NCBI GenBank assembly: GCA_003561595.1
Contig: PWWF01000274.1
Span: 1 to 18,104, forward strand
DNA: 18,104 nucleotides
Source of the DNA: Paracoccaceae bacterium
GTDB taxonomy: Bacteria > Pseudomonadota > Alphaproteobacteria > Rhodobacterales > Rhodobacteraceae
Reading direction: 5' to 3'
Shown: in pieces, positions 1-15,279 of the stretch
Layout: each line of letters starts with the position of its first letter
How positions within the stretch are numbered: position 1 is the stretch's first letter
Notes under the pieces: model-generated
What the model saw: the letters and a program-made list of their open reading frames with translations, nothing else
Told to the model about the DNA's origin: nothing
Database searches by the model: none
Made by a program: the position numbers and the translations under genes

Positions 1-1
1 C

Positions 2-1525: not shown

Positions 1526-3534
1526 GGCTTTTGGCACTGGGTCTTTGTGCCGCGCTGGCGCTGGGGATCGGGCTGGATCGCTGGATCGCGGCGACCGATC
1601 TGCCCCCGCTGGTGCCCGACACCTCGGTCGAGGTGCTGGCGCGTGATGGCAGCTTGCTGCGCGCTTACACAGTGCAGGACGGGCGCTGGCGTCTGGGTGT
1701 TGCGCCCGAGCGTGTTGACCCGACCTATCTGGCGATGCTGTTGGCCTATGAGGACAAGCGTTTCTATCGACATCGGGGTGTGGACCCCGTGGCGCTGCTG
1801 CGTGCGGCCGGGCAAAGCCTCTGGCGGGGGCGCGTCGTCTCTGGCGGATCAACCCTGACCATGCAGGTCGCGCGGCTGATCGAGGAGGGCCCCACCGGCA
1901 CATGGCGCGGCAAGCTGCGTCAGATGCGCCTGGCGCTGGCGCTGGAACGCGTGCTGGGCAAGCCCGAGATCCTGAGCCTTTACCTGCATCACGCGCCGAT
2001 GGGCGGCAATATCGAAGGGCTGCGCGCGGGCAGTTTCGCGTGGTTCGGGCGCGAGCCCGCGCGGCTGACCGAAGCGCAATCGGCGCTGCTGGTGGCGCTG
2101 CCGCAATCACCTGCCGCGCGCGCGCCCGACCGACACCCCGACCGCGCACGGGTCGCGCGCGCCCGCGTGCTGGCGCGTGCCGTCGCGGCGGGTGTGATCG
2201 ACGCGGATACTGCAACCGCCGCGCAGCGCGAACCCCTGCCGCAGGACCGCCGCGCCTTTCCGGCGCTGGCCCCGCATCTGGCCGACCGTCTGCGCGCGGC
2301 CCGGCCCGATCGCCATGTCCATCGCACCACGATCGACCCCAACCTGCAGACGGCGCTGGAACAGGTCGCGCGTCAGGCGCAGCGTGATCTGCCGCCGCGT
2401 GCCACCGTCGCGATGATGGTAGCCGACCCGGCCTCGGGCGAGATTGTCGCAAGCGTCGGGTCAGGCGATTATCTGGACATGGCGCGCGAAGGCTTTGTGG
2501 ACATGACGCAGGCCCTGCGCTCGCCCGGATCGACATTGAAGCCGCTGGTCTATGGGCTGGCCTTTTCCGACGGGCTGGCGCATCCGGAAACGCTGCTGCA
2601 TGACCGCCCCGCGCGTTTCGCGGGCTATGCGCCGCAGAATTTCGACCGCCAGTTTCGCGGCCCCGTCACGGCGCGAGAGGCGTTGCAGATATCGCTCAAC
2701 CTGCCGGTGGTCGAATTGACGCAGGCGCTGGGGCCCGCGCGACTGATGGCAGCCCTGCGCGCCGCCGGTGTGCGGGCCGAGGTGCCGGGCGATGCGCCGG
2801 GGCTTGCGGTGTCTCTGGGTGGTGTCGGCATGTCGCTGGAGGGGTTGGTGCAGCTCTACGCCACCATCGCGCGCGGCGGTGCGGCGGTCGATCTGTCGGT
2901 GGAGGGGCCGAGCGATTCGCCCCGCCGTCAGGTCCTGAGCGCCGAGGCCGCCTGGCATCTGGGCGATATTCTGGCCGCCGCCCCCCGCCCCGCGCGCTTG
3001 CCGGATTGGCGCGTCGCGTTCAAGACGGGTACCTCCTATGGGCACCGGGATGCGCTGGCGGTGGGCTTTGACGGGGCGCATGTGGTCGGGGTCTGGGTCG
3101 GGCGCGCGGATGGCGCGCCGGTGCCCGGGATATACGGGGTCGATGTTGCAGCCCCCATTCTGTTCGATGTGTTCGGCCATCTGGGGACGGCACCTGTGGC
3201 GCTGCCCCCCGCGCCGCCTGCGGCGCTGGTTCTGGCGCATGGTGATCTGCCCGATCCGCTGCGCCAGTTCCGCATGGGGCCGCGCGCGGGCGATCAGGCG
3301 CCGCAACTGGCCTTTCCCCCCGATGGTGCCGAACTGGTGCCGATGGGCGGGCGGGTGATGGTGCGGGTTGAACGCGGGCAGGCGCCGTTCACATGGTTTG
3401 CCAATGGCGCCCCGGTCCTGCGCCAGAGCCATGAGCGCGAGACGATGCTGGAACTCGACAGTCCTGGGTTCGTCTCGCTGGCGGTGGTCGATGCCACAGG
3501 TCAGGCCGCCCGCGTGCAGGTCGAGCTGCGCTGA
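1522..3534 (+). CDS. pbpC: Penicillin-binding protein 1C (bifunctional peptidoglycan glycosyltransferase/transpeptidase)
   Basis: The 670-residue product builds and crosslinks peptidoglycan in the periplasm. A short N-terminal hydrophobic anchor (about residues 3-17) precedes a GT51 glycosyltransferase domain, with EDKRFYRHRGVDP and its catalytic Glu at 77, GGSTLTMQ at 108-115, and the later GGNIEGLRAG and ALLVALPQSP blocks. The transpeptidase domain has STLK with nucleophile Ser337 and Lys340, SLN at 391-393 and KTGTS at 501-505, so both active sites look intact. The C-terminal stretch after about residue 575 fits the BiPBP_C domain that distinguishes PBP1C from other class A enzymes. The GTG start at 1522 overlaps the upstream macroglobulin stop, indicating translational coupling. 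The gene ends 25 bases before the convergent anti-sigma gene, and I see no clear terminator there. Confidence 0.95.
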   Translation: MRLLALGLCAALALGIGLDRWIAATDLPPLVPDTSVEVLARDGSLLRAYTVQDGRWRLGVAPERVDPTYLAMLLAYEDKRFYRHRGVDPVALLRAAGQSLWRGRVVSGGSTLTMQVARLIEEGPTGTWRGKLRQMRLALALERVLGKPEILSLYLHHAPMGGNIEGLRAGSFAWFGREPARLTEAQSALLVALPQSPAARAPDRHPDRARVARARVLARAVAAGVIDADTATAAQREPLPQDRRAFPALAPHLADRLRAARPDRHVHRTTIDPNLQTALEQVARQAQRDLPPRATVAMMVADPASGEIVASVGSGDYLDMAREGFVDMTQALRSPGSTLKPLVYGLAFSDGLAHPETLLHDRPARFAGYAPQNFDRQFRGPVTAREALQISLNLPVVELTQALGPARLMAALRAAGVRAEVPGDAPGLAVSLGGVGMSLEGLVQLYATIARGGAAVDLSVEGPSDSPRRQVLSAEAAWHLGDILAAAPRPARLPDWRVAFKTGTSYGHRDALAVGFDGAHVVGVWVGRADGAPVPGIYGVDVAAPILFDVFGHLGTAPVALPPAPPAALVLAHGDLPDPLRQFRMGPRAGDQAPQLAFPPDGAELVPMGGRVMVRVERGQAPFTWFANGAPVLRQSHERETMLELDSPGFVSLAVVDATGQAARVQVELR

Positions 3535-3559
3535 CGGACCGTGGGTAGCCAGGCAATCA

Positions 3560-4357
3560 TCACTCCTGCACAGCGGCGGCGAGGGTGGTGATCGACCCGG
3601 CATCGGTTGCAGCGATGACAGCGTAATGCAGACCCTCGCTGCTCCAATACGCCATCCTCTCCCCGTCGCGTTCCGCAACGCGCAGGCTGTAATCTGGTTG
3701 TTCCAACGCGCGTGGGGTCATCGAGACGGTGATTCGCTCATTGTCCGGGTTTCGATAATAGAACACGGCGACCGGCTGGTTATCGACCACCGCCAGACGT
3801 GCGGTTTCCACCTGATAGCCCAGCCGGTCCAGCTTGGGGCTGTCGATCTTCTGCTGCATCTGTTGCGACATCCAGTCCAAGGCGGCGTCCATCTCATATG
3901 CCTCAAAACTGGCGCGTTCAAAGGCGGCGAGCTTGTAGGCCGTATGTTCCGCCAGCGTGTGCGAGACGAATTGCGGATAGACCGTGCCACCATTGCCAGT
4001 GCCGCTGCCATAAAGCGCATGTGTGCCCCAGCCCGCCGCGAACAGCAGAACGCTGGCCGCGATACGCTGCACCACAGGGCCGAAAGCCACCACGCGCCAG
4101 CGCCGCTTTTGCAGCTTGCGCGCAAGCTGGCGTTCCAGCGCGGCGATCTGCAGGTTTTCGGGGCGGTCATCCGCGCTGGCGGCGTAATCATGCAGCAGAT
4201 TGCCGAAATGCCGCCATTGCGCCACGGCCTCGCGGGCTTGGGCGTCATGGGCCAGCCGCGCCTCAATCTCGGCCATCCGCTCGGGCGCGAGCGTGCCATC
4301 GACATAGGCCATCAAGTCGGGGTCAAGGCCCGGATCAGGGGTATCCGTGCGCGTCAT
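3560..4357 (-). CDS. Transmembrane anti-sigma factor paired with the ECF sigma factor
   Basis: The 265-residue product begins with a soluble domain rich in the pattern DPDLMAYVDGTL...EIEARLAHD, typical of anti-sigma factors that hold an ECF sigma factor at the membrane. One hydrophobic segment (about residues 92-114) would cross the inner membrane. The remaining roughly 150 residues would be periplasmic and presumably sense the signal. The N-terminal domain has no Cys-rich HxxxCxxC zinc motif, so it is not a classical zinc-binding anti-sigma factor such as ChrR. The ATG overlaps the sigma stop by 4 bases (ATGA on the minus strand), so the two are one translationally coupled operon. Regulated proteolysis of the membrane protein is the usual release route in this class, but nothing here shows which protease or stimulus acts. 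Confidence 0.87.
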   Translation of the reverse strand: MTRTDTPDPGLDPDLMAYVDGTLAPERMAEIEARLAHDAQAREAVAQWRHFGNLLHDYAASADDRPENLQIAALERQLARKLQKRRWRVVAFGPVVQRIAASVLLFAAGWGTHALYGSGTGNGGTVYPQFVSHTLAEHTAYKLAAFERASFEAYEMDAALDWMSQQMQQKIDSPKLDRLGYQVETARLAVVDNQPVAVFYYRNPDNERITVSMTPRALEQPDYSLRVAERDGERMAYWSSEGLHYAVIAATDAGSITTLAAAVQE

Positions 4358-4869
4358 GCGTCACCTTCCTTCCGTTTCAGGATCGTCAGCTTTCCCGCGC
4401 CGACACCCTGCACGATCCGGCGCAGGGCCTCGCGTCCGCGGCCCAGCCGCGACATGAATGTGCCAAGCGGCACGTCCAGACAGCGCGCGGCTTCGGCATA
4501 GCTCATCTCGCGCAGCGCGATCAGGATGATCGGCATGCGCTGCGCCTCGGGCAACTGGTCCAGCGCGCCCAGCACCTGCTTCAGTTCAAGCTGCGTGTGC
4601 TGGCAGTCGCGCGCCACCGGGTCCGGCAGGTCGGGCGCAGCATCCGTGCGCGTTTTCGCGCGGCGCAACTCGCTGACATGGGTGTTGTGCAGGATGCGGA
4701 ACAGCCACGGGCGCAGGTTCGAACCGGGCTGGAACGTATCGGACTTGGCAATCGCTTTCAGCAGTGTTTCCTGCACCAGATCATCGGCGGCGACCGGGTC
4801 GCGGGTCAGGACCAACGCATAGCGGCGCAGGCTGCCGACATGGGTATGCAATTCGGTTTTCAGGCTCAC
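4354..4869 (-). CDS. ECF-type RNA polymerase sigma factor
   Basis: The 171-residue product has the two-domain ECF layout. Region 2 is at about residues 8-72, with DDLVQETLLKAI, the LRPWLFRILHN block and a terminal ELRR. After a linker, region 4 is at about 100-152, with LDQLPEAQRMPIILIALREMSYAEAA and a helix-turn-helix ending LGTFMSRLGRGREALRR. It would direct RNA polymerase to a dedicated promoter class. The start is GTG at 4867-4869, chosen because AAGG lies about 8 bases upstream and a promoter-like element sits just beyond at 4901-4926. That element matches three others in the window (near 4967, 6710 and 6785), so autoregulation is likely. The next gene, overlapping by 4 bases, is its anti-sigma factor. 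I cannot assign the ECF subgroup with confidence from the sequence alone. Confidence 0.93.
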   Translation of the reverse strand: MSLKTELHTHVGSLRRYALVLTRDPVAADDLVQETLLKAIAKSDTFQPGSNLRPWLFRILHNTHVSELRRAKTRTDAAPDLPDPVARDCQHTQLELKQVLGALDQLPEAQRMPIILIALREMSYAEAARCLDVPLGTFMSRLGRGREALRRIVQGVGAGKLTILKRKEGDA

Positions 4870-4900
4870 GATGTCACCTTTTCAGGCTAGTTTTCAGGAC

Positions 4901-4927
4901 ATACGCGCCATGCGCGGGTTTCATCCA
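4901..4927 (-). promoter_or_regulatory. Putative ECF promoter of the sigma/anti-sigma operon (autoregulatory)
   Basis: Read on the minus strand, TGGATGAAA (4919-4927) is followed by exactly 13 bases and then CGTAT (4901-4905). Transcription would begin near 4893, giving a leader of about 24 bases before the GTG start at 4869. It is the weakest of four matching sites: T replaces the first G of the -35 element and A the fourth base of CGTT. That the sigma factor itself reads it is inferred. Confidence 0.7.
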
Positions 4928-4958
4928 GAAACTGCGGAAAAAATCTGTCGCGTCAGCC

Positions 4959-4986
4959 GGGATGAAAGCCCCGCGTGAGGCGTTTT
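4959..4986 (+). promoter_or_regulatory. Putative ECF promoter of the DUF2333 gene
   Basis: GGGATGAAA (4959-4967), a 13-base spacer and CGTTTT (4981-4986) lie 23 bases before the ATG at 5010. A start near 4993 leaves a short leader carrying the ribosome-binding site. Written as GGGAT-N17-CGTT, the spacing matches ECF-type promoters. It is divergent from the sigma operon promoter, the two -35 elements being 31 bases apart. Confidence 0.75.
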
Positions 4987-5009
4987 CCCTGCAGTTACAG
5001 GAGAGCACC

Positions 5010-6005
5010 ATGGCAAACGATCTGATCCTGCGGCCGCCCGTGCCCGCGAAGCGACCGCAGACAACACTGCCGGGCCTGATCTTCGGCACGAAACCGCGGG
5101 TGATCGCAAAACGCAGTGTGCTGTATCTGGCCGCTGTTCTGGTCCTGTATTTCGGCGTGATCGGCAATCTGATGCATCGGATCGACGCGGATCTGGAGTT
5201 CACACCGCCCGCGCCCATCGAGGATGGCAGCCATGCCGTGAACATGGCCGAAGCGCTGATCCTGCGCGAAACGGTCGAGAACCGCTGGACCGCGAATGAC
5301 CCGATCTTCTTTCCGACCGCGTTTCACGACAACATGCCGAATTTTCAGCGCGGCATGATGCGCGCGATCAGCCGTTTCACGATGGAGCTGGAAAACCAGA
5401 TCGGGCGGCTGCGCGGATCCTCGGCCATCGACCGCGATCTGGAACGCGCGACCGGCCTGCTGCAATTCCCGACCGATGTGTGGCTGTTCGATTTCGACCA
5501 GTCCTTCCTGCCGATCCAGCCCGCCGACACGCAATATGAGGCCGCCGCCCGCGCCTTGCGGTCCTTCAACACGCGTGTGGCCATCGGCATGGCCGTGTTC
5601 GAGACCCGCGCCGACGCGCTGGCCCTGACGGTTGAACGCATGGCCAGTGAGCTGGGATCGCGCGCCGCAATCGTGGATGACCATGTCAGCGGCGACGGGT
5701 TCATCATCGATTTCGTGTCCGATGACATCTTCTATTTCAACAAGGGGATGGCCTATGCGTCCTATCTTTTGCTGCGCGAACTGGGCCGCGATTTCGAGGA
5801 TGTCATCCGCGCCCAGGGCCTGACCCGCGTGTGGCAGCAGGGGCTGGAGAGCCTGCGCCTGGCGTCCCAGCAAAAACCGCTGATTGTGTTGAACAGCTCT
5901 GGGGCGAACAGTTTCCTTGCCAATCATCTGCATCTGCAGGGGTTCTACCTGAAACGCGCGATCCTGCAACTTGATGAGGTCGCACGCGTGATCCGCGCGA
6001 ACTGA
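5010..6005 (+). CDS. DUF2333 family membrane-anchored protein
   Basis: The 331-residue product matches my recollection of the DUF2333 family. Recognisable blocks are ENRWTANDPIFFP, DNMPNFQRGMMRAISRF, DRDLERATGLLQFP and WLFDFDQSFLPIQPADTQY. A single hydrophobic segment (about residues 36-54, after a basic stretch) anchors it in the inner membrane; the rest is hydrophilic, probably periplasmic and largely helical. The family's function is unknown to me and I see no catalytic motif. The start is ATG 5010, because AGGAG at 4999-5003 is spaced 6 bases from it and the ECF-like promoter at 4959-4986 ends just upstream. A longer open frame upstream would have to cross that promoter and is rejected. 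The gene diverges from the sigma factor, has its own terminator, and is probably a direct target of that sigma factor. Confidence 0.87.
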   Translation: MANDLILRPPVPAKRPQTTLPGLIFGTKPRVIAKRSVLYLAAVLVLYFGVIGNLMHRIDADLEFTPPAPIEDGSHAVNMAEALILRETVENRWTANDPIFFPTAFHDNMPNFQRGMMRAISRFTMELENQIGRLRGSSAIDRDLERATGLLQFPTDVWLFDFDQSFLPIQPADTQYEAAARALRSFNTRVAIGMAVFETRADALALTVERMASELGSRAAIVDDHVSGDGFIIDFVSDDIFYFNKGMAYASYLLLRELGRDFEDVIRAQGLTRVWQQGLESLRLASQQKPLIVLNSSGANSFLANHLHLQGFYLKRAILQLDEVARVIRAN

Positions 6006-6024
6006 GCGACATCTTTTGCGAGCG

Positions 6025-6054
6025 CACCCCGGCCTCCAGGGCCGGGGTGTTTGC
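6025..6054 (+). terminator. Rho-independent terminator after DUF2333
   Basis: A perfect 10-base GC-rich stem (CACCCCGGCC at 6025-6034, GGCCGGGGTG at 6040-6049) with a 5-base loop is followed by a short TTT run. It lies 20 bases after the DUF2333 stop, so that gene appears to be transcribed alone. Confidence 0.8.
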
Positions 6055-6283
6055 TGTGCAGGCTTTCTTGCGCTTCGGACTGACTGGCGCGCGTGCGACG
6101 GCCTCGCCAAAACGCCCGGCTTGTCCCGCAGACAAGCGGCAAGAGAAGCCTTCCATCCCTCCAAGTGATGCATTGGCTCTAGCAATCTGCGCGAGGGGAG
6201 CGGCACCAGATGTTGACTGGTCCTTGGCATGGTGGCGCGTGCGCAATTCCCAAGACGCCCCGCAGGTCATATCCGCGCACATG
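6055..6283. other. Non-coding spacer between two converging terminators
   Basis: This stretch of about 230 bases lies between the terminators of two converging genes. Open frames cross it on both strands, but none has a convincing ribosome-binding site or recognisable domain, and the longer ones run into neighbouring genes. It holds a perfect 7-base hairpin (GCTTGTC at 6119-6125, GACAAGC at 6131-6137) without a T tract. No tRNA fold is apparent. It could be a remnant or a dispersed repeat, which cannot be judged from this window alone. Confidence 0.5.
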
Positions 6284-6314
6284 AAAACGCCGGGGCAACA
6301 TGGCCCCGGCGTTT
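6284..6314 (-). terminator. Rho-independent terminator of the DUF1127-like gene
   Basis: A perfect 12-base stem (6285-6296 with 6303-6314) closes a 6-base loop. Read on the minus strand it ends in TTTT, downstream of the small gene whose stop is at 6332. The AAA/TTT ends of the stem may also let it work in the other direction. Confidence 0.8.
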
Positions 6315-6331
6315 CTCGCAATGTCGCGGCG

Positions 6332-6670
6332 TTATTCTGCCGCGATGGCGTGGTGCTCTCGCCTCTCGATGCCTGCATCCTCTTCCTCGACCAGCCGCAG
6401 GATGTCCGAGGTGATCTCGGCTTCGCGTTCGGCCCGAAGCGCCAGTTCCTCGACATCGAAGGCAAGCGTCGCACGCGACAGGCCGATCCGGTTTAGCTGC
6501 CGCTCGTTCAGGCGCAGCAGGGTGGCTGTGACCGCGATCATGTCGCGGTCCTGCAGCCAGGCTTCATAGTCGCGCCGGTCGCGATGGATCAGCCGGCCCC
6601 ACAGGCCGATCATGCCATCCTTGCGCTTGGCGCGGGCGGGCAGGGCAGGGGCAGTCTGTGTCATGGACAT
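6332..6670 (-). CDS. Small DUF1127-like protein of unknown function
   Basis: The 112-residue product is charged and soluble, with no signal peptide or membrane segment. Residues 54-66 read LNERQLNRIGLSR, resembling the core of DUF1127/YjiS-like proteins (L..R.L..IG..R), embedded in a helical region followed by a Glu-rich tail. I assign only this similarity; the protein is longer than typical DUF1127 members and no biochemical role can be read. The start is ATG 6668-6670, because GGAGGA sits 4 bases upstream of it. An ATG four codons earlier (6680-6682) would place that ribosome-binding sequence inside the coding region, and an ATG two codons later is also possible. The gene is monocistronic, has its own terminator, and is preceded by a strong copy of the shared ECF-like promoter, divergent from the antiporter operon. 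Confidence 0.72.
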   Translation of the reverse strand: MSMTQTAPALPARAKRKDGMIGLWGRLIHRDRRDYEAWLQDRDMIAVTATLLRLNERQLNRIGLSRATLAFDVEELALRAEREAEITSDILRLVEEEDAGIERREHHAIAAE

Positions 6671-6697
6671 GGGTTCCTCCATCTGGTTGACATGGCG

Positions 6698-6725
6698 ATA
6701 ACGCCTTGATGCTGCATTTCATCCC
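6698..6725 (-). promoter_or_regulatory. Putative ECF promoter of the DUF1127-like gene
   Basis: On the minus strand GGGATGAAA (6717-6725) is followed by 13 bases and CGTTAT (6698-6703). A start near 6691 leaves about 20 bases of leader before the ATG at 6670, with GGAGGA in between. The -35 element is identical to those at 4959 and 6771. Confidence 0.75.
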
Positions 6726-6770
6726 GGCCTCACCACGGCGTGATCGCCCGAGGGTTTCGCCGCACGCGAC

Positions 6771-6798
6771 GGGATGAAACTGCGCCCCCATGCGTTAG
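6771..6798 (+). promoter_or_regulatory. Putative ECF promoter of the Mrp antiporter operon
   Basis: GGGATGAAA (6771-6779), a 13-base spacer and CGTTAG (6793-6798) point into the antiporter operon. The predicted start is near 6805, about 75 bases before the preferred mrpE start. It is divergent from the promoter of the DUF1127-like gene, the -35 elements being 45 bases apart. Other promoters for the operon are not excluded. Confidence 0.72.
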
Positions 6799-6879
6799 CT
6801 TATCAACCATGATATGACGGATCATCATCGCCGCGGCGCAGCTTGCGGGGATGCTCGATCACGGGGATACGAGGCTATT

Positions 6880-7467
6880 GTGCGCAAGACTGCCGAACAG
6901 ACACCGGGCCATGATGGCCCCCCGCCCGCACGCGCCACCCAGATGGTGCTGCGCGACACGCCCCCGCCGCCTGGCATGCGCTGGCGTCGTTTTGCCGTCA
7001 AACTGGTGGCGCTGGCGCTGATCTGGGGGGTGCTGACCGAATTTCGCGTCGATGCGTTATACTTCGGGGTGCCCGCCATCCTGCTGGGGGCGGCGCTGGT
7101 CTTTGCGATGCCAGTCGCGCCGGGCTGGCGCATTTCGCCTGCTGGGGCGGTCAGTTTCGCGCTGTGGTTCGCGGTCCAGTCGGTGCGCGGGGCGGTCGAT
7201 GTCGCGCAGCGCGCCTTTTCGCCCGCGATGCCGCTGCGCCCCGGCTTTCGCAGCTATGCGCCCGACCTGCCGGGTGGCGCGCCACGGGTGATGTTCCTCA
7301 ACACAATCACGCTTCTGCCCGGCACCCTGTCGGCCGAGGTTGAGGGTGATGAGGTGATTGTCCACATGCTCGACACACGCGCCGATCTGGAGGCCGATCT
7401 TGGCGCGCTGGAGGCGCGGATCGCCGCGCTGTTCGGCCTGAACGTCAATCCCAGAGGGTCCACATGA
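6880..7467 (+). CDS. mrpE: Mrp-type Na+/H+ antiporter subunit E
   Basis: The product is a small inner-membrane subunit of a multi-subunit cation/proton antiporter. It has hydrophobic helices at VKLVALALIWGVL, LYFGVPAILLGAALVFA and GAVSFALWFAVQSV. The MrpE hallmark MFLNTITLLPGTLSAEV is followed by the soluble C-terminal domain (VIVHMLDTR). The start is uncertain: the frame opens at ATG 6814, but only GTG 6880 has a good ribosome-binding site (GAGG at 6871-6874, 5 bases away), giving 195 residues; ATG 6943 would give 174. Typical MrpE proteins are about 160 residues and the extra N-terminus is hydrophilic and Pro-rich, so a downstream start remains possible. It is the first gene of the operon, overlaps mrpF by 4 bases, and lies behind the ECF-like promoter at 6771-6798. 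Confidence 0.88.
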   Translation: MRKTAEQTPGHDGPPPARATQMVLRDTPPPPGMRWRRFAVKLVALALIWGVLTEFRVDALYFGVPAILLGAALVFAMPVAPGWRISPAGAVSFALWFAVQSVRGAVDVAQRAFSPAMPLRPGFRSYAPDLPGGAPRVMFLNTITLLPGTLSAEVEGDEVIVHMLDTRADLEADLGALEARIAALFGLNVNPRGST

Positions 7468-7724
7468 CGATCTATCTTTACGCTATCGCCACGCTGCTGC
7501 TGCTGAGCATCCTGGCCGGGCTTATCCGCGTGTTGCGCGGTCCCCGCCCGGCAGAGCGCATGATGGCCGCGCAGCTATTCGGGACAGCGGCGGTCGCGAT
7601 CCTGCTGATCCTGTCGCGCATCATGGACAGCCCGGCGCTGCTGGATGTCGCAATGGTCTTTGCGTTGCTGGCCTCCGTGACGCTGGTGGCCTTTGTCGTC
7701 CTTGCCTCGCGAAAGGTGTCGTGA
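7464..7724 (+). CDS. mrpF: Mrp-type Na+/H+ antiporter subunit F
   Basis: The 86-residue product has three predicted membrane helices (about residues 4-24, 36-52 and 58-82). It carries the family pattern RGPRPAERMMAAQLFG after helix 1 and SPALLDVAMVFALLASV before the end, both typical of MrpF/MnhF/PhaF. It is a structural subunit of the membrane antiporter complex. The ATG overlaps the mrpE stop by 4 bases and its own stop overlaps the start of mrpG, so the three are translationally coupled. Length matches the family. Confidence 0.93.
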   Translation: MTIYLYAIATLLLLSILAGLIRVLRGPRPAERMMAAQLFGTAAVAILLILSRIMDSPALLDVAMVFALLASVTLVAFVVLASRKVS

Positions 7725-8032
7725 TGCCCGATCTGATACCCCTGGTCTCGGCAGTTCTGATCGCGGCCGGTGCCGTGTTCTTCATCGCCGGCACTGTCGG
7801 GCTGCTGCGCTTTCCAGACACCTATTGTCGCCTGCATGCGCTGACCAAGGCCGACGGGCTGGGGCTGGCGCTGATCGCGCTGGGCATCGCCCTGACCGCC
7901 AGCAGCTTTGGCGAGGTGTTTCGCATCGCGCTGATCTGGTTCTTTGTGGCCGTGGCCAGCGCCACGGGTGGTCATCTGATCGCGACTTATGCCCGCCGCG
8001 TGGACCGTGCCGAGGGGAAGGAGGGGTCATGA
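7724..8032 (+). CDS. mrpG: Mrp-type Na+/H+ antiporter subunit G
   Basis: The product of about 102 residues has three predicted helices and the diagnostic MrpG stretch GLLRFPDTYCRLHALTKADG after helix 1. It is an inner-membrane subunit of the antiporter complex. ATG 7724 is taken as start because it forms a one-base TGATG overlap with the mrpF stop and has GAAAGG upstream. GTG 7721, one codon earlier, is the alternative. It overlaps the next gene by 4 bases (ATGA). Confidence 0.93.
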   Translation: MPDLIPLVSAVLIAAGAVFFIAGTVGLLRFPDTYCRLHALTKADGLGLALIALGIALTASSFGEVFRIALIWFFVAVASATGGHLIATYARRVDRAEGKEGS

Positions 8033-9009
8033 CCGATGCCGCCATCCTGTTCGACCTGCTGCTGGCAGGCTCGGTCATCGCGCTGGCCATTGCGTCGCTG
8101 ACCGTGCGCGACATGTTCGCGGCGATCGTGCTGTTCGTTATATTCGGCCTGCTGTCCGCGCTGGCCTGGGTGCGGCTGTCCGCCCCTGATGTCGCGCTGG
8201 CAGAGGCCGCCATCGGCACCGGCGTCACCGGCGCACTGCTGCTCAAGACGTTGCATCATCTGCGCTATGTCACGGGTAAGCTGGGCGAGGGGCCAGCGCG
8301 CGGCCTGACCCCCACCGCGCCTGTGCCTGCGGGCGTGATCTGGGCCAATGCCGCGTTTTGCGGCATGATCACGCTGGGGCTTGCACTGGCCTTTCTGGGC
8401 GCGCCGCGATCCGGGCCGGGGTTCGACGCGCTGGTGGCCGAGGCGATGCCTGCCAGCGGGGTGGACCATCCGGTGACGGCTGTGCTGCTGAATTTCCGCG
8501 CCTATGACACGCTGATGGAAGTGGTGGTGCTGCTGGCCGCCGTGATCGCGGTCTGGCAGATCGAACGGGGCCTGTCCGACGCCCCCGCCCCCGCGCTGGG
8601 TGAGGTCTGGCAGGGGTTCGCGCGCCTGACACTGCCCGCCATCGTGGTCGTGGGCACCTATCTGCTGTGGAAAGGGTCCGAGGCACCGGGCGGCGCGTTT
8701 CAGGGGGGCGCGGTGCTGGCGGCGGTGGGGTTGTTGCTGCTGTTGTCGCGGATCTATGTGCCGCAGCCCGCGCATCGCGGTCTGGCGCGCTGGGCCTTTG
8801 TGCTGGGCGCGGGGGCTTTTGCCGGGGTGGCGCTGCTGGTGTCGGGCGGCGGGCGTGTGGCCTTCGAATACCCGGCGGAACACGCCTATGCCCTGATCCT
8901 GCTGATCGAGGGGCTGGTGACCATCTCCATCGCTGTGACGCTGGCCGCGCTGTTTCATGGGCGCGAGCCTGTCGCGGCCCCGGTGCCGGAGGGGCGCAAT
9001 GACACCTGA
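8029..9009 (+). CDS. MbhD/MbhE-MrpB fusion: MrpA C-terminal domains joined to antiporter subunit B
   Basis: The 326-residue protein joins parts that are separate in other systems. Residues about 5-75 are a DUF4040/MbhD-like helical domain (LTVRDMFAAIVLFVIFGLLSALAW and DVALAEAAIGTGVTGALLL). Residues about 105-185 are MbhE-like, with VTAVLLNFRAYDTL at 149-162; both correspond to the C-terminal end of canonical MrpA. Residues about 195-315 are MnhB/MrpB, with SEAPGGAFQGG at 217-227. The conserved acidic and polar residues of the MbhD part, proposed in this superfamily to form part of the ion path, are present. ATG 8029 is chosen for its 4-base overlap with mrpG and the GGAGG upstream; the frame extends further 5' only by overprinting mrpG. 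Because no full-length MrpA exists here, this protein probably supplies its C-terminal function. Confidence 0.88.
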   Translation: MTDAAILFDLLLAGSVIALAIASLTVRDMFAAIVLFVIFGLLSALAWVRLSAPDVALAEAAIGTGVTGALLLKTLHHLRYVTGKLGEGPARGLTPTAPVPAGVIWANAAFCGMITLGLALAFLGAPRSGPGFDALVAEAMPASGVDHPVTAVLLNFRAYDTLMEVVVLLAAVIAVWQIERGLSDAPAPALGEVWQGFARLTLPAIVVVGTYLLWKGSEAPGGAFQGGAVLAAVGLLLLLSRIYVPQPAHRGLARWAFVLGAGAFAGVALLVSGGGRVAFEYPAEHAYALILLIEGLVTISIAVTLAALFHGREPVAAPVPEGRNDT

Positions 9010-9292
9010 TCTGATCTATGGGCTGACCGGGATCGCGGTCTTTGCCATCGGGCTGGTGGGCGCGCTGTGCGCGCAGGACCGGCTGCGCCGTGTGCTGGCG
9101 CTCAAGCTCTGTTCGGTGGGTGCGGGCTTCGTGCTGGTCGTCGCGGCCTGGCGCAGCCCGCCTGCCGACCCGGACCCTGTGCCGCATGCGCTGGTCATCA
9201 CCGGCATTGTCGTGATGGTCAGCGCGACTGCCGTGGCGCTGGCGCTGATCCGCCGTTTGCAAACGCTCGAGGCCGAAGATGATGATGATTGA
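8999..9292 (+). CDS. mrpC: Mrp-type Na+/H+ antiporter subunit C (NuoK-like)
   Basis: The 97-residue product has three predicted helices (about residues 6-22, 29-47 and 63-85) and belongs to the NuoK/MrpC family of small membrane subunits. The segment RRVLALKLCSVGAGFVLV and the later ALVITGIVVMVSATAVALAL fit MrpC. It ends in an acidic tail (EAEDDDD). ATG 8999 lies inside the last codons of the preceding gene (11-base overlap). The frame continues upstream, but that part overprints the MrpB domain and is rejected. Its stop overlaps the next subunit's start region by 14 bases. Confidence 0.88.
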   Translation: MTPDLIYGLTGIAVFAIGLVGALCAQDRLRRVLALKLCSVGAGFVLVVAAWRSPPADPDPVPHALVITGIVVMVSATAVALALIRRLQTLEAEDDDD

Positions 9293-10721
9293 TCCGGTCA
9301 TCCTGACCCTGTTCCTGCCCTTGTTCGGCGCCATCGCGGCCTTTGTGCTGCCGCGTGCAGCGGCCTGGGTCGGGCTGTTGGCCGTGCTGGCGACAGGGGG
9401 CGCGGTCGCCGCACTCGTGCGCGACGTGCTGGCAGCGGGCGAGGTCGTGACCCAACTGGGCGGCTGGGCCCCGCCGCTGGGTATTGCGCTGCGCGCGGAT
9501 GGGCTGAGCGTGGCCATGCTGGCCATGACGGCGGGCGTGGGCCTGCTGGTCAGCATCGGCGCGCTGGACAGCCTGCGCGATCTGCGCGAGCGGCAGTATT
9601 TCTGGCCGCTCTGGCTGCTCTTGCTGACGGGCATGAACGGGGTCTATCTGGGCACCGATATCTTCAACCTCTATGTGATGATTGAGGTCATCGCGCTGGC
9701 CGCCGTGGGCCTGACCGTGCTGAGCGGCACGAAACAGGCCGTGCGCGCGGGGCTGGAATACATGTATGCCTCGATCCTTGGGGCGCTGTTGTTCCTGATG
9801 GGGGTGGGCTTTGTCTATCTGCAGACGGGTCGGCTGGATTTCGCAGGGCTGATCGCGGCGGAGCCCTCTGGCGCGATGAGTGCCGCGCTGGCCCTGATGG
9901 TCGTGGGGCTATTGCTGAAAACCGCGCTATTCCCGCTGCATTTCTGGCTGCCTGCGGCCCATGCGAATGCCACGGCCCCGGCCTCGGCGCTGTTGTCGGG
10001 GCTGGTGGTCAAGGCCGCGCTTTATATCTTTCTGCGGCTGACCACCTATATGCCGCTGCCCGATGAGATACTGGTCACGCTGATCGGCATGCTGGGGGCC
10101 GGGGCCGTGCTGTGGGGGGGCGTGCAGGCCTTGCGGGCCGAGCGGCTGAAACTGCTGGTGGCGTGGTCCACGGTCGTGCAGATCGGGCTGATCTTCATTG
10201 CCTTTGCGCGCGCCGGGCAGGTGGGCCTGTCCGAGAGCTGGAAGGCAGCGGCGCTTCTGATCCTGGCGCATGGCGTGGCGAAATCCGCGATGTTTCTGGC
10301 AGCCGGGCGCATCAAGGATGAAATCGGCCATGACCGGATCGCCGATCTGGACAAATCCGACATCCGACCCACGCTGGCGCAATTCACCTTTGCTCTGGCC
10401 GCGATCAGCATTATCGGCCTGCCCCCCAGCCTTGGCTTCATCGGGAAATGGACGCTGATGGAAGGGGCCATGGCGGCCGGATACTGGCACTGGGTTGCCG
10501 TCACGATGATCGGCACACTGATGTCGGTGGCCTATTTCAGCCGGGTCTTTGCCGGGTTCCTGCGCTTTGACCGGATGCGCGGCGAACTGGCCGAACACAA
10601 GGGCTGGGCGCTGGCGGATGCCGCGCCGCTGACACTGGCCATCGCGGCCATATCGCTGGGCCTGATGGCTGCGCCGATCCTCAGCTTTATCGAGCTTGGC
10701 TACCCGTTCGGAGCGCAATAA
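9279..10721 (+). CDS. mrpD: Mrp subunit D / NuoN-like proton-conducting membrane subunit, paralogue 1
   Basis: The 480-residue, roughly 14-helix protein belongs to the proton-conducting antiporter family shared with NuoL/M/N. The expected ion-path residues are visible: the TM5 glutamate Glu136 (YVMIEVIALAAVGL), the TM7 lysine Lys214 (LLKTALFPLHFWLP), Lys245 of TM8 (LVVKAALYIFLRL) and a later HGVAKSAMF segment. It starts at ATG 9279, with two further in-frame ATGs immediately after, and overlaps mrpC by 14 bases. It is the first of three consecutive D-type paralogues. Family knowledge says such subunits carry proton or cation exchange; which ion this complex uses is not readable here. Confidence 0.93.
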   Translation: MMMIDPVILTLFLPLFGAIAAFVLPRAAAWVGLLAVLATGGAVAALVRDVLAAGEVVTQLGGWAPPLGIALRADGLSVAMLAMTAGVGLLVSIGALDSLRDLRERQYFWPLWLLLLTGMNGVYLGTDIFNLYVMIEVIALAAVGLTVLSGTKQAVRAGLEYMYASILGALLFLMGVGFVYLQTGRLDFAGLIAAEPSGAMSAALALMVVGLLLKTALFPLHFWLPAAHANATAPASALLSGLVVKAALYIFLRLTTYMPLPDEILVTLIGMLGAGAVLWGGVQALRAERLKLLVAWSTVVQIGLIFIAFARAGQVGLSESWKAAALLILAHGVAKSAMFLAAGRIKDEIGHDRIADLDKSDIRPTLAQFTFALAAISIIGLPPSLGFIGKWTLMEGAMAAGYWHWVAVTMIGTLMSVAYFSRVFAGFLRFDRMRGELAEHKGWALADAAPLTLAIAAISLGLMAAPILSFIELGYPFGAQ

Positions 10722-12208
10722 TGACCGAAACACCGTTTCTGCCGCTTTTCATTCTGCTGACCTCGCTTCTGGCCTCGCCCGTCCTGTTCGCGCTGCCAGA
10801 GACTGCGGCGCGCCTGCGCACGGGCATCAATCTGGGGGTTGCGGCGGTCAAGGTCGCGCTGGTCGCCTGGCTGGGCTGGAAGGTCGGGCAGGGCGTGATC
10901 TATGATGTCAGCTTCACCATGTTGCCGGGGCTGGATTTCAAGCTTCAGGCTGACCCGCTGGCGATGCTGTTCATCTCGCTTTCAGCGATCCTGTGGCTGA
11001 TCACCACGGTCTATTCCGTGGGCTATCTGGAACGCGGGCCCCACCGCGCGCGGTTCTTCGGGTTTTTCAGCCTGTGCGTGGCCGCGACTGTTGGCATCGC
11101 CATGGCTGGGAACCTGTTCACATTCCTGATCTTTTACGAGTTGCTGACGCTGGCCACCTATCCGCTGGTGATCCATCGCGGCAGCGCCGAGGCGTTGCGC
11201 GCAGGCCGCATCTATCTGATCTACACGCTGGCCGGGGGGTTGGTGCTGCTGTTGGGCACGCTGGGGCTGTGGGTGCTGGCCGGCACGACCGATTTCGCGC
11301 CCGGCGGCATCCTTGATGATGTGGTGGCCGAGAACCGGCTGGCGGCGCAGATGCTGTTCGTGGTGCTGGTGGGCGCGCTGGGGGTCAAGGCCGCGCTGGT
11401 GCCGTTTCACGCCTGGCTGCCCATTGCGATGGTGGCCCCTGCGCCCGTCTCGGCCCTGTTGCACGCGGTCGCGGTGGTCAAGGCGGGCGCGTTCGGGATC
11501 ATGCGCGTGGTCTATGAGGTCTTTGGCATTGAGACTGCGCAGGCGCTGGGCATGACCGCGCCGCTGGCGGCAATGGCGGCTATCACGATCCTCTATGGCT
11601 CGCTTTGCGCGATCACGCAGGATGACATCAAGAAGCGCCTTGCCTATTCGACGGTCAGCCAGGTCAGCTACATCACGCTGGGCGTGGCGCTGGCCAGCCC
11701 CATCGCGGCTGTGGGGGCCATGGCGCATCTGATCCATCAGGGGCTGATGAAGATCACGATGTTCATGGCCGCAGGCAATCTGGCCGAAGGGCTGGGCGTG
11801 AAAAAGGTCAGCCAGATGGACGGGGTGGGCCGCGACATGCCGGGCACGATGCTGGCCTTTTCCGCCGCCGCACTGGCGATGATCGGTCTGCCGCCGCTCG
11901 CGGGGTTTGTCAGCAAATGGTATCTGGCGCAGGGCGGGCTGGATGCGGGCTATGGCTGGGTGATCGCGCTGCTGTTGGGGTCCAGCCTGCTGAATGCGAT
12001 CTATTTCCTGCCCATGCTGCACCGCGCCTGGTTCCGCGACGGGGGCGCGCGCGACCAGACCCCGGCGCGCCGTCGCATCGGCTGGATGCTGGCCGCCCCG
12101 CCGATTGCGACCGCGCTGATGGTGCTGGCCGTGGGTGGCTTTGCCAATGCGCCCTTCAGCCCGCTGGAATGGACGCGTTTCGTCGTGGCGATCGAGTATC
12201 AGGAGTAA
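10721..12208 (+). CDS. Proton-conducting antiporter subunit (MrpD/ND5-like), paralogue 2
   Basis: The 495-residue multi-helix membrane protein shares the proton-conducting antiporter core. It has the TM5 glutamate Glu140 (FLIFYELLTLATYPLV), Lys223 (GVKAALVPFHAWLP), Lys254 (AVVKAGAFGIMRV) and LIHQGLMKITMF. The stretch TTVYSVGYLE before TM4 resembles MrpA/ND5 as much as MrpD, so it may stand in for the missing N-terminal part of MrpA; it lacks the long ND5 C-terminal helix. The start overlaps the previous stop by one base (TAATG). It ends three bases before the next gene, whose ribosome-binding site AGGAG spans its stop. Confidence 0.91.
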   Translation: MTETPFLPLFILLTSLLASPVLFALPETAARLRTGINLGVAAVKVALVAWLGWKVGQGVIYDVSFTMLPGLDFKLQADPLAMLFISLSAILWLITTVYSVGYLERGPHRARFFGFFSLCVAATVGIAMAGNLFTFLIFYELLTLATYPLVIHRGSAEALRAGRIYLIYTLAGGLVLLLGTLGLWVLAGTTDFAPGGILDDVVAENRLAAQMLFVVLVGALGVKAALVPFHAWLPIAMVAPAPVSALLHAVAVVKAGAFGIMRVVYEVFGIETAQALGMTAPLAAMAAITILYGSLCAITQDDIKKRLAYSTVSQVSYITLGVALASPIAAVGAMAHLIHQGLMKITMFMAAGNLAEGLGVKKVSQMDGVGRDMPGTMLAFSAAALAMIGLPPLAGFVSKWYLAQGGLDAGYGWVIALLLGSSLLNAIYFLPMLHRAWFRDGGARDQTPARRRIGWMLAAPPIATALMVLAVGGFANAPFSPLEWTRFVVAIEYQE

Positions 12209-12211
12209 GGG

Positions 12212-14020
12212 ATGACACTCTCGGTCTATCTGTTTGCGGTGGGCTGGCCGCTGGCCATGGCGGCGGCGCTGTTGGTCGCGCCTGCGCGCCCGATTCTGTG
12301 GCGGATGATGCCGCTGGCCGCGCTGCCCGCGCTGCTGCTGGGCCTTCTGGTGCCCGGCCCGCAACTGGTGCGCGGTGACTGGTTCGTGCTGGGCCTGACG
12401 ATGGGGCTGGACCAGACCTCGCGCCTGTTCGTGATCTTTACCAGCGTGCTGTGGATCGCAGCCTCCAGCGCCGCGCGGCACTGGATGCGCGATGACCCGC
12501 GCGCCACGGGCTTTGGCGTCATGTTCCTGATGGCGATGAGCGGCAATCTCGGGCTGATCCTGTCCAAGGATGCGATGGCGTTCTATGGCGCCTTTGCGCT
12601 GATGAGCTTCGCGTCCTACGGGTTGGTCGTCCATACCCGCGATGCGGGCGCCAAGGCGGCGGCACGGCTCTATATCGGGTTTGTCGTGATCGGCGAGTTG
12701 ATCCTGTTTTCCGGGCTGGTGCTGGCGGCCACGCAATCCGGCTCGATCCTGCTCGAGGACATGCGCAGCACCGAGCTGTCGGGGCTGGCGGTGGCGCTGC
12801 TGCTGGTCGGCTTTGGCATCAAACTGGGGGTGATGCCGCTGCATTTCTGGCTGCCGCCCGCGCATGGCGCGGCCCCGGTGCCCGCCAGCGCGGTCCTGTC
12901 GGGCGCGATGATCAAGGCCGGGCTGTTCGGCATCCTGTCTGCCGTACCGTTGGGCGTGGTCAGCTATTCCGATCACGGCACGGTCGTCATGGCCGCCGGG
13001 ATGATCACGATCTTTGCCGCGCTTCTGCTGGGCGTCCAGCAGGACAGCGCCAAGCCCGTGCTGGGTTTTTCCAGCGTCAGCCAGATGGGCATTATCGCGC
13101 TGGGGCTGGGCGCGGGGCTGATGACGCCTGCGGCCTGGCCCGCCATTGCGCCGGTGCTGGTGTTTCTGGCCGCGCATCACGGACTGGGCAAGGGGGCGCT
13201 GTTTCTCGGCGTCGGCGCATGGGCCGCGCAGGCCGGGCGCGCGGGGCGCGTGGCGGTCACGTTGGCCATGCTGGCCCCGGCGCTTGTGCTGGCGGGGCTG
13301 CCCTTCAGTTCCGGCGCATTGGGGAAAGAGGCGCTGAAAGACGCGCTCGGGTCAGGGTCCGAGGTCTGGCTGCCCTGGCTGATCCTGGCGCTGACGCTGT
13401 CGGGCGTTGCGACCACGCTGCTGATGGCGCGCGCGCTGGCCGCCCTCTGGCTGCACCCGCCCAAGGCCCCGCCTGCCCGGCCAGAGGCGCTGGCGCTGCC
13501 CTTTCTGGGCCTTGCGGGTGGGGCTGTGGCGCTGCCGGTCATCTGGCCGCTGCTGGACAGCGGCATGGCCGCGCCCGTGCTGGATGCGTATAGCGGCGCG
13601 CTCTGGCCTGTCGCGCTGGGCACCGGGATCGCGCTGACCACGGCTATCAGTGCCTATGCACAGCATGTCGGCCCGGCTGCGTTCGTCGCGCTATTGCTGT
13701 CGCCGGGGCGCGCGGTGACGGGCCGGATGGAAAGCTGGTGGTCCGCCAAGCGCCGGGCTGCGCGGCGCGTGGGGCGCGCCGTGCCGCGCAGGCTGGAGGG
13801 GGTCGGGCAACGCTGGCGGCTGGGTCAGGCAGCGATTGCCGGGCTGATCGTCGCCGTCCTGCTGGTCGAGGCGACATCCCCCCTGCGCCCGACTCAGACC
13901 AAGACGCCCGCCGTGTTGCTGGACCCGACCGGACAGGAAACCGAGCTGGACCTGCCCGATCTGGAAACCGACACCGAGATAGAAGAGACTGAGGCGCTGG
14001 AGGATGATCTGGCCGACTAA
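12212..14020 (+). CDS. Proton-conducting antiporter subunit, paralogue 3, with altered TM5 and acidic C-terminal tail
   Basis: The 602-residue product has the same antiporter core as its two neighbours, with Lys204 (GIKLGVMPLHFWLP), Lys235 (MIKAGLFGIL) and AAHHGLGKGALF. It differs in two ways. At the position of the TM5 glutamate it has Ala129 (FYGAFALMSFASYGLVVH), while a Glu appears one helix later at 162 (VVIGELILFSG), where the two neighbours have Gly or Ala. After about residue 510 it continues with a basic Arg/Trp-rich segment, an additional helix (about 541-556) and a highly acidic tail to the end. It starts with ATG 12212 behind AGGAG and ends 5 bases before the convergent chrA stop, with no evident terminator. 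It is probably a subunit of the complex with a changed or relocated ion path. Confidence 0.88.
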   Translation: MTLSVYLFAVGWPLAMAAALLVAPARPILWRMMPLAALPALLLGLLVPGPQLVRGDWFVLGLTMGLDQTSRLFVIFTSVLWIAASSAARHWMRDDPRATGFGVMFLMAMSGNLGLILSKDAMAFYGAFALMSFASYGLVVHTRDAGAKAAARLYIGFVVIGELILFSGLVLAATQSGSILLEDMRSTELSGLAVALLLVGFGIKLGVMPLHFWLPPAHGAAPVPASAVLSGAMIKAGLFGILSAVPLGVVSYSDHGTVVMAAGMITIFAALLLGVQQDSAKPVLGFSSVSQMGIIALGLGAGLMTPAAWPAIAPVLVFLAAHHGLGKGALFLGVGAWAAQAGRAGRVAVTLAMLAPALVLAGLPFSSGALGKEALKDALGSGSEVWLPWLILALTLSGVATTLLMARALAALWLHPPKAPPARPEALALPFLGLAGGAVALPVIWPLLDSGMAAPVLDAYSGALWPVALGTGIALTTAISAYAQHVGPAAFVALLLSPGRAVTGRMESWWSAKRRAARRVGRAVPRRLEGVGQRWRLGQAAIAGLIVAVLLVEATSPLRPTQTKTPAVLLDPTGQETELDLPDLETDTEIEETEALEDDLAD

Positions 14021-14025
14021 GCCTC

Positions 14026-15222
14026 TCAGGGGATGAAGGCCAGCCCGACCCCGCCCGCTGCGGCCACGATCACCACCACCCAGGGCGGGGCCTTCCACGC
14101 CATCAGCAGCACGAAACAGGCCAGGGCGAGGGTGAAATCGCGCATATCCCCGACCGCGCTGGTAAAAACAGGGGAATAGAGCGCTGCGCCAAGAATGCCC
14201 ACGACCGCCGCATTCGCCCCCTGCATCAGCGATTGTGCTTTCGCCATGGTGCGAAATCGCTCCCAGAAGGGCAGCACGCCGATCAGCAGCAGGAAACCCG
14301 GCACAAAGATCGCGGCCAGCGCCAGCGCGCCACCAAGGGTTCCGTTGGGCACCGGACCCAATGCGCCCAGATAGGCGGCAAAGGTAAACAGCGGCCCCGG
14401 CACCGCCTGCGCCGCGCCGTAGCCTGCCAGAAACTCATCGGCGCTGATCTGCCCCGTGGCGACCGTTTCGGCCTGCAACAGCGGCAGCACCACATGGCCA
14501 CCGCCAAAGACCAGCGACCCGGCGCGATAATAGCTGTCGATCAGTGCCAGAACCGCCCCGTGCCCGGCCAACAGCGGCAAAAGCGCCAGCAGAGCCGCAA
14601 AGACAATCAGCGCCCCGATGGCTATGCGGCGCGACACGGGCGTTGCCAGTGGCGCGCCCCCGCTTGCGCTCGCACCACGCCCCAGCACCAGCCCGGCCAG
14701 CCCGCCCAGGACAATCGCGCCGACCATGCCGGAAGCACCGGGCAGGACAGCCAGCATCGCGACCGCGCCCACGGCGATGGCAGCGCGTTCGCGGTCCGGG
14801 CACAGGTTCTGCGCCATGCCCCAGACGGCTTGGGCGATGATCGCCACAGCCACGATCTTCAACCCGTTCAGCGCGCCGGTGCCCACCGGCCCCGACAGGC
14901 TGGCCGCGCCCAGTGCAAAGGCCAGCATGATGAGCGCCGAAGGCAGGGTAAAGGCCACAAAGGCCGCCAGCGCGCCTGCCCAGCCCGCCCGCATCATCCC
15001 CAGCGCAAACCCCACCTGGGATGAGGCCGGACCCGGCAGAAACTGGCACAGCGCCACCAGATCGGCATAGGCGCGGTCATCCAGCCATTTGCGACGGGTC
15101 ACCAACTCATCCCGGAAATAGCCCAGATGTGCGATCGGCCCGCCAAAGCTGGTCAGCCCCAGCTTGAGGAACGCGCCGAAAACCTCGGCCGCATTGCCTG
15201 CCAGGGTGGTGGGTTGTGTCAT
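14026..15222 (-). CDS. chrA: ChrA-family (chromate) transporter, two-domain form
   Basis: The 398-residue inner-membrane protein has the duplicated layout of long-chain CHR transporters. The N-terminal half carries LTSFGGPIAHLGYFRDEL (about residues 23-40) and FLPGPASSQVGFALGMMRAGW (61-81). The C-terminal half repeats this as SLVFGGGHVVLPLLQAE (about 232-248) and QAVPGPLFTFAAYLG. Characterised members export chromate, but many chromosomal ones have no known substrate, and no chrB or other chromate gene is seen nearby, so resistance is not established. ATG 15222 has AAGG about 10 bases upstream; GTG one codon earlier is possible. It lies 69 bases downstream of the Lrp-type regulator on the same strand, so co-transcription is possible, and is convergent with the antiporter operon. 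Confidence 0.9.
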   Translation of the reverse strand: MTQPTTLAGNAAEVFGAFLKLGLTSFGGPIAHLGYFRDELVTRRKWLDDRAYADLVALCQFLPGPASSQVGFALGMMRAGWAGALAAFVAFTLPSALIMLAFALGAASLSGPVGTGALNGLKIVAVAIIAQAVWGMAQNLCPDRERAAIAVGAVAMLAVLPGASGMVGAIVLGGLAGLVLGRGASASGGAPLATPVSRRIAIGALIVFAALLALLPLLAGHGAVLALIDSYYRAGSLVFGGGHVVLPLLQAETVATGQISADEFLAGYGAAQAVPGPLFTFAAYLGALGPVPNGTLGGALALAAIFVPGFLLLIGVLPFWERFRTMAKAQSLMQGANAAVVGILGAALYSPVFTSAVGDMRDFTLALACFVLLMAWKAPPWVVVIVAAAGGVGLAFIP

Positions 15223-15268
15223 CACGGATTTGCCTTGTGTCGCGTCGGGCCGGTTCTGTCGGATTGGT

Positions 15269-15279
15269 GTAACAGTTAC
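15269..15279. promoter_or_regulatory. Perfect palindrome upstream of chrA
   Basis: GTAACAGTTAC is an 11-base perfect inverted repeat with a one-base centre in the 69-base gap between the Lrp-type gene and chrA. Its symmetry and position suggest an operator, but no matching regulator can be named; chance is possible. Confidence 0.3.

Follow-up and report, generated by a model that had tools for sequence, protein, structure and literature searches.

Four motifs with a fixed spacer as predicted promoters of an adjacent ECF sigma factor in a Paracoccaceae bacterium

An 18,104-nt stretch of DNA from a Paracoccaceae bacterium (assembly GCA_003561595.1, contig PWWF01000274.1, positions 1 to 18,104; hereafter the window) encodes an extracytoplasmic function (ECF) sigma factor together with a probable membrane anti-sigma factor and a DUF2333 protein. 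It also carries a gene for a small DUF1127-like protein and an operon for a Mrp-type cation/proton antiporter. Four copies of a bipartite motif face these transcription units, and comparison with related genomes indicates that they are very probably promoters of the adjacent sigma factor. The features concerned are as follows.

3560..4357, minus strand: probable membrane anti-sigma factor gene, 265 aa (weak family matches and a structure model)
4354..4869, minus strand: gene for a 171-aa ECF sigma factor, starting with GTG and overlapping the anti-sigma gene by 4 nt (Pfam and TIGR02937 above cut-off)
4902..4927, minus strand: predicted promoter of the sigma/anti-sigma operon, TGGATGAAA-N13-CGTA (exact motif; conserved in orthologous loci)
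4959..4984, plus strand: predicted DUF2333 promoter, GGGATGAAA-N13-CGTT (exact motif; conserved in orthologous loci)
5010..6005, plus strand: DUF2333 protein gene, 331 aa (PF10095, 64.3 bits; cut-off 22)
6332..6682, minus strand: DUF1127-like small protein gene, 116 aa, or 112 aa from a start at 6670 (homologues in orthologous loci)
6700..6725, minus strand: predicted promoter of the DUF1127-like gene, GGGATGAAA-N13-CGTT (exact motif; conserved in part of the orthologous loci)
6771..6796, plus strand: predicted promoter of the Mrp-type operon, GGGATGAAA-N13-CGTT (exact motif; conserved in orthologous loci)
6814..14020, plus strand: Mrp-type cation/proton antiporter operon (Pfam: E, F, G, a MbhD-MbhE-MnhB fusion, C and three Proton_antipo_M subunits)

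A four-copy motif with a constant spacer

The motif KGGATGAAA-N13-CGTW has exactly four exact matches in the window, each of them intergenic and pointing at a gene. They form two divergent pairs. One lies in the gap between the sigma gene (start at 4869) and DUF2333 (5010); the other separates the DUF1127-like gene, which starts at 6682 or 6670, from the Mrp operon, which starts at about 6814. The -35 part reads GGGATGAAA in three copies and TGGATGAAA in one, and the spacer is 13 nt in all four. These observations bear out the initial annotation of this DNA, which had described four intergenic copies facing genes, with three identical -35 parts and a uniform spacer, although the ends that it gave for the copies were off by 1-2 bases. 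Because the four spacers are identical at just 2-8 of 13 positions in pairwise comparison, the sites are not recent duplicates of one another, as had also been argued. When up to two mismatches are allowed, the window contains five matches against 0.56 expected, a number that was reached in none of 200 shuffles.

A search of the whole genome, which the initial annotation had proposed as a check, found five occurrences of the exact core GGATGAAA-N13-CGTW in 3.3 Mb (440 contigs), four of which fall within the window. A backwards control motif gave one match at up to one mismatch and no exact match. A position weight matrix (PWM) was then built from 119 promoters of relatives, leaving out both the window and its nearest relative (L028); the 5% quantile of its training promoters lies at a score of 19.9. 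The four window sites score 26.1-30.5, no further position in the 18.1-kb window scores 8 or more, and the remaining matches in this genome with up to one mismatch score 20.0 at most. The fifth exact core (contig C152, L001) is not counted as a target, since its PWM score is only 10.3.

The spacing is equally strict among relatives. When the window is counted in, 40 loci (515 kb) contain 84 exact matches with a spacer of 13 nt, none with spacers of 8-12, 14-17 or 19, and one each with spacers of 18, 20 and 21. In 121 distinct promoters, the columns that played no part in selection are also biased, with a G preceding CGT in 92% and a T at offset 27 in 78%, such that the motif is best described as (G)GGATKAA(A)-N12-G-CGTW-TKT. 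The -10 element of the sigma promoter is CGTA in 34 of 37 loci and that of the DUF2333 promoter is CGTT in 26 of 37, a difference that may set different promoter strengths. Strict spacing and wide conservation together make this a clean case for studying sigma-promoter specificity.

Could the sites be chance matches, or copies of each other? The exact core is found in at least 172 of 295 genomes drawn from the family, and such isolated matches constitute background; the family-wide count is for this reason uninformative alone. Moreover, five of 30 background matches from the family score 20.4-23.4 on the PWM, inside the range of true promoters. What is exceptional about the motif is its clustering and its conservation, rather than any single match. 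Chance or duplication as the origin of the four sites was rejected on the basis of the shuffles, the differing spacers, the exclusive use of spacer 13 and the conservation in 39 orthologous loci, and we consider its probability negligible.

Conservation of the motif and co-occurrence with the sigma factor

A total of 84,980 species genomes were scanned with six short peptide patterns, yielding 73 loci, of which 39 (L028-L066, with sigma factors of 57-96% identity) were taken as orthologues and 34 (L067-L100, at most 47%) as distant. Mismatches were counted over 12 fixed motif positions for the best match facing each gene, and denominators exclude genes that are cut by contig ends or were not found within the locus. 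The motif faces the sigma gene with 0-1 mismatch in 36 of 39 loci (up to two in 37), DUF2333 in 32 of 38 (37 of 38) and mnhE of the Mrp operon in 27 of 29 (28 of 29). For the DUF1127-like gene the corresponding counts are lower, at 18 of 30 and 19 of 30. Seven of the 11 DUF1127-like genes that have no good site (L053, L055, L057, L059, L061, L062 and L063) follow DUF2333 directly, on its strand, and could thus share its promoter. Comparison of intergenic regions in relatives, another check suggested at the outset, accordingly finds the same sites facing the same genes across the 39 loci. Considering both strands, 73 of the 80 exact matches in these loci point at one of the four genes, at median distances from the approximate gene start of 17-83 nt across the four gene sets. 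The other seven comprise two before a gene for an SPW-like protein, three before an ATPase gene and two (L046 and L057) with no assigned gene behind them. The 34 distant loci contain no exact match and four matches with one mismatch.

Variation within the genus points in the same direction. A sigma orthologue is present in 20 of 37 genomes, and DUF2333 is present in precisely those 20 (Fisher p 6e-11, not corrected for phylogeny). The 20 sigma-positive genomes contain 67 exact motifs, versus 16 in the 17 sigma-negative genomes, and five of these 16 precede mnhE or a DUF1127-like gene in incomplete assemblies (G300, G303 and G312). Orthologous mnhE, defined by an identity of 55% or more, occurs in 23 genomes, including 19 of the 20 sigma-positive and four of the 17 sigma-negative ones. 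All 23 copies are preceded by the motif, with mismatches at no more than two of 13 positions (none in 15, one in five, two in G301, G302 and G311), a result equalled by at most two of 100 shuffles. By comparison, none of the seven mnhE paralogues that could be examined, of eight, has the motif; their best sites carry 4-5 mismatches and are equalled by 50-100 of 100 shuffles. In the family draw, a sigma factor of 60% identity or more is found in three of 295 genomes.

The initial annotation had called the regulon local. This description is too narrow, as mnhE in some relatives, and an ATPase gene in some, carry the motif away from the sigma gene. Mrp operons located on the opposite side of the sigma gene, or distant from it, retain the motif. 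In G315 and G317, mnhE lies about 17 kb from the sigma gene and keeps the exact motif; in G307 it lies mid-contig on another contig with the exact core; and G309, G301 and G302 likewise have it on other contigs, with one mismatch in the first and two in each of the others. In G318 the separation results merely from an assembly break inside DUF2333. Since mnhE keeps the motif at such distances, neighbourhood alone cannot explain the link between the two. The other part of the earlier claim, that the regulon belongs to the encoded sigma factor, is supported by the orthologous, rearranged and plasmid-borne loci and by the pattern within the genus. What sequence comparison shows is a motif of constant spacing and orientation that is tied to these target genes and occurs together with the sigma factor.

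The main rival explanation is that the sites are promoters chiefly of another sigma factor, for example an EcfG-type factor of the general stress response encoded beside PhyR, and that the local one contributes little. Candidates are available, as ten matches in the genome exceed the cut-off of TIGR02937, which also picks up other kinds of sigma-70 factor, and contig C203 has a separate PhyR gene beside an ECF gene. In addition, the window sigma factor is 41% identical to a Sinorhizobium meliloti sigma factor adjoining rsiA1/rsiB1 (RpoE2-type, ECF15), and EcfG promoters, GGAAC-N16/17-CGTT, are spaced almost identically. The -35 element here, however, is GGGAT rather than GGAAC. The motif also clusters with the orthologous sigma gene, DUF2333 tracks that gene from genome to genome, and the motif stands at the sigma factor's own operon in 37 of 39 loci and travels along with it on plasmids. 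This co-occurrence disfavours recognition by another sigma factor, which we regard as improbable. A second possibility is that the motif represents an operator for a DNA-binding regulator, given that conserved, spaced boxes can equally be operators. Against this stand the asymmetry of the motif, the predominance of exact matches pointing at four genes from short distances, the fixed spacing, the -10-like GCGTW box and the presence of an ECF sigma gene within the module, and an operator appears less probable still.

Several observations weigh against assigning the four sites to the adjacent sigma factor, beyond the background of isolated matches described above. Three mismatches are present in the sigma promoters of L049 and L051 and in the DUF2333 promoter of L063. 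The four DUF1127-like genes that neither have a good site nor follow DUF2333 (L046, L047, L048 and L050) also show three mismatches, and mnhE of L050 shows four. The sigma-positive genome G310 has no orthologous mnhE, and G300, G303, G311 and G312 (79-95% complete) have an mnhE orthologue and no detected sigma factor; their mnhE-side motif has two mismatches in G311 and is intact or has one mismatch in the other three. G314 (L186) lacks any exact motif, and its sigma orthologue (59%) is interrupted by one in-frame stop. Finally, the loci are related to one another and some assemblies are part of both the locus set and the genus set, so that the counts are not independent. Two side observations concern individual genomes. 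In G311 (L154 and L220) the mnhE-side site is degraded (GGATAAGA) and the site opposite it is an exact motif, a picture resembling decay of the regulon once the sigma factor had been lost, and G310 (L195) and G328 (L203) share near-identical exact motifs with no known regulon gene behind them.

Sigma factor, anti-sigma factor and target proteins

The assignment of the sigma factor to the ECF family is based on the presence of regions 2 and 4 and the absence of region 3. Its Pfam matches (Sigma70_r2 at residues 9-72, Sigma70_r4_2 at 98-149, and PhyR_sigma2) are all above cut-off, and TIGR02937 scores 67.7 bits against a cut-off of 42.9. Two further hallmarks of the family are evident from the gene arrangement, namely a putative cognate anti-sigma gene in the same predicted operon and a bipartite, apparently autoregulatory promoter motif before the sigma gene. 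A downstream, overlapping anti-sigma gene is found in 38 of the 39 orthologous loci, and the exception, L034, stops at a contig end.

The NCBIfam anti-sigma match of the 3560..4357 product is weak. The layout of the protein comprises an N-terminal anti-sigma-type part, one transmembrane helix (residues ~94-110, modelled with low confidence) and a C-terminal domain (158-265) whose predicted fold resembles the C-terminal domain of RseB/MucB. The structural alignment with RseB/MucB takes in just residues 145-265, at 7-13% sequence identity, and a Pfam search of 36 anti-sigma members found no MucB/RseB family, so the link to RseB/MucB rests on fold. In the RpoE-RseA-RseB system of Escherichia coli and the AlgU-MucA-MucB system of Pseudomonas aeruginosa, RseB/MucB is a separate periplasmic protein with an N-terminal lipoprotein-like domain of its own. 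Here, by contrast, the RseB-like domain is fused into the anti-sigma protein, and the N-terminal domain of RseB is absent. The anti-sigma factor thus seems to hold its own sensor domain.

Among characterized sigma factors, those of group ECF26 with a membrane anti-sigma factor (S. meliloti RpoE1, RpoE3, RpoE4 and RpoE6) are similar in having a downstream anti-sigma factor composed of an N-terminal domain, a transmembrane segment and a periplasmic domain. The window sigma factor is 38% identical to a sigma factor of the S. meliloti pSymA replicon that adjoins a divergent subtilase-like gene and fits the description of RpoE6, group ECF26 (PMC6180224). The same paper attributes small regulons to this group, with the most prominent RpoE6 targets located near rpoE6, and gives its promoter consensus as -35 GGAATA and -10 GT (PMC6180224). 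The window promoters differ in having GGGATGAA as the -35 element and GCGTW, which contains GT, as the -10 element, and their target genes are different. Relative to EcfG (ECF15), with which it shares the identity and the similar promoter spacing noted above, the window sigma factor has a membrane anti-sigma factor, a GGGAT -35 element and no NepR or PhyR alongside, its neighbours being the anti-sigma gene, DUF2333 and pbpC. Because the two identities (38% and 41%) are so close and the promoter consensus differs, we file it under neither ECF26 nor ECF15. By analogy, the module resembles the standard arrangement of an ECF sigma factor with a membrane anti-sigma factor, and would be a system of a known kind.

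Poorly understood proteins figure as constant or recurrent targets of this predicted regulon. The DUF2333 protein is probably helical and membrane-anchored; its AlphaFold2 model is almost all-helical, and Foldseek returned no PDB match at E <= 0.001. The label DUF1127-like, carried over from the initial annotation, reflects a resemblance that stays below the Pfam cut-off. The window protein has no Pfam match at E up to 1, and the best DUF1127 (PF06568) match among scanned homologues, that of strain SC52, has an E value of 0.015 and 15.4 bits (cut-off 23.3). Like other Mrp (CPA3) antiporters, the Mrp-type system, as judged from its genes, has E, F, G, B, C and D-type subunits in a single operon. 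It differs from them in that Pfam found no full-length MrpA in 6814-14020; the operon instead has a MbhD/MbhE/MnhB fusion gene (8029-9009) and three Proton_antipo_M subunits.

Two further targets are probable, judging by sites in relatives. A small SPW-like membrane protein lies behind the motif (exact or with one mismatch) in five loci (L053, L055, L056, L063 and L064); three of these proteins were scanned and match SPW below the cut-off, and the other two were assigned by eye. An AAA_15/AAA_21 ATPase, weakly similar to OLD and other AAA proteins, is preceded by an exact motif in L056, L059 and L061, and genome-wide exact matches in G303 (at 569 nt), G315 and G317 precede the same AAA_15/OLD-like ATPase. 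Over 17 distinct ATPase loci with a start (startless fragments L048, L248, L300 and L301 were left out), six have a strong site (L059, L061, L056, L289/L159, L291/L198 and L295/L190, the last 569 nt upstream), five have a weak one of GGATTA type that outscores 40 shuffles (L286, L293, L296, L294/L029 and L297/L066), and six have no site (L287, L288, L290, L292, L298 and L299). The ATPase gene of the window's own genome (contig C279:3287-5428, L293) belongs to the second group, its weak site scoring 13.7 against a best score of 3.6 in 40 shuffles.

Proposed mechanism, role and spread

In the mechanism that we propose, the sigma factor would at rest be held by the co-transcribed membrane anti-sigma factor. 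Once the outer RseB-like domain sensed a signal related to the envelope or to ions, the sigma factor would be freed and would direct RNA polymerase to start at GGGATGAA-N13-GCGTW. The output would be more sigma and anti-sigma factor (autoregulation), the DUF2333 protein, the DUF1127-like small protein and the Mrp-type antiporter; the AAA_15/OLD-like ATPase on another contig may join the regulon through its weaker site. Direct recognition by the sigma factor, its release from the anti-sigma factor, the nature of the signal and the part played in salt/alkali or envelope stress are inferred. No description of this regulon was found in the literature searched, in which subscription journals are thinly covered, and no paper pairing DUF2333 with 'sigma factor' was among the matches listed. 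The regulon, including its Mrp-type operon, looks newly described, and its precise promoter code and short target list are, to the extent of the searchable literature, additions to what is described for ECF sigma factors.

The module also occurs on plasmids and in a gammaproteobacterium. Plasmid pSC52_1 of a Rhodobacteraceae strain carries the sigma, anti-sigma, DUF1127-like, DUF2333 and Mrp genes with the motif. Plasmids of Skermanella mucosa and S. rosea (L208 and L209) carry a sigma factor (56%), an anti-sigma factor, SPW, DUF2333 and YqhA with one-mismatch sites, as well as a DUF1127-like gene. Neither flank of the module has a Mrp gene within 9 kb, and L209 also has a gene for an ATPase-inhibitor zeta wired into the module. 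In the gammaproteobacterium Ectothiorhodospira haloalkaliphila (L050), the sigma, DUF2333, DUF1127-like and Mrp genes occur together on a 1.8-Mb contig, with clear motifs before sigma and DUF2333 only. Its sigma factor groups with the Rhodobacteraceae sigma factors, within the Skermanella branch, at a node with support values of 81/89 that is shown as open. This distribution is apparently explained most simply by horizontal transfer.

The stress module that the initial annotation envisaged, coupling a membrane sensor to cation/proton exchange, is kept conditional here, because the Skermanella version shows no Mrp genes in its vicinity. The regulon may be real and yet respond to stress on the envelope or lipids in general, not to salt or alkali stress, with Mrp as one late-joined target. 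The Skermanella plasmids, the resemblance of the anti-sigma outer domain to RseB/MucB and the occurrence of the module in the marine genera Tropicimonas and Roseivivax all favour such a role. It is opposed by the presence of orthologous mnhE in nearly all sigma-positive genomes of the genus and in many other Rhodobacteraceae loci, and by habitat. Four of the loci are from metagenome-assembled genomes named T3Sed10 or B1Sed10, data-set names used for Kulunda soda lakes (PMC6146748), and several carriers have haloalkaliphile names. Since marine genera carry the module too, the link to salty or soda habitats is suggestive only, and we place a general envelope or lipid role not far short of an even chance.

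More tentatively, and with somewhat less confidence than we accord that envelope role, the system can be pictured as a portable ECF module whose anti-sigma factor doubles as a sensor, combining a RseA-type anchor with a RseB-like outer domain, and which would couple the state of the envelope to Mrp exchange through a -35 class of its own, GGGATGAA. As a salt/alkali survival unit, it would have spread in soda-lake Rhodobacteraceae and reached E. haloalkaliphila, with plasmids taking it to other Alphaproteobacteria. The predicted promoter before the Mrp-type operon hints at how soda-lake bacteria might switch on such an antiporter. Downstream of this operon, the window (14026-17058) contains no copy of the motif and encodes a chromate transporter and an Lrp/AsnC regulator, both on the minus strand, and a pyridoxal phosphate (PLP) enzyme of Cys/Met metabolism on the plus strand.

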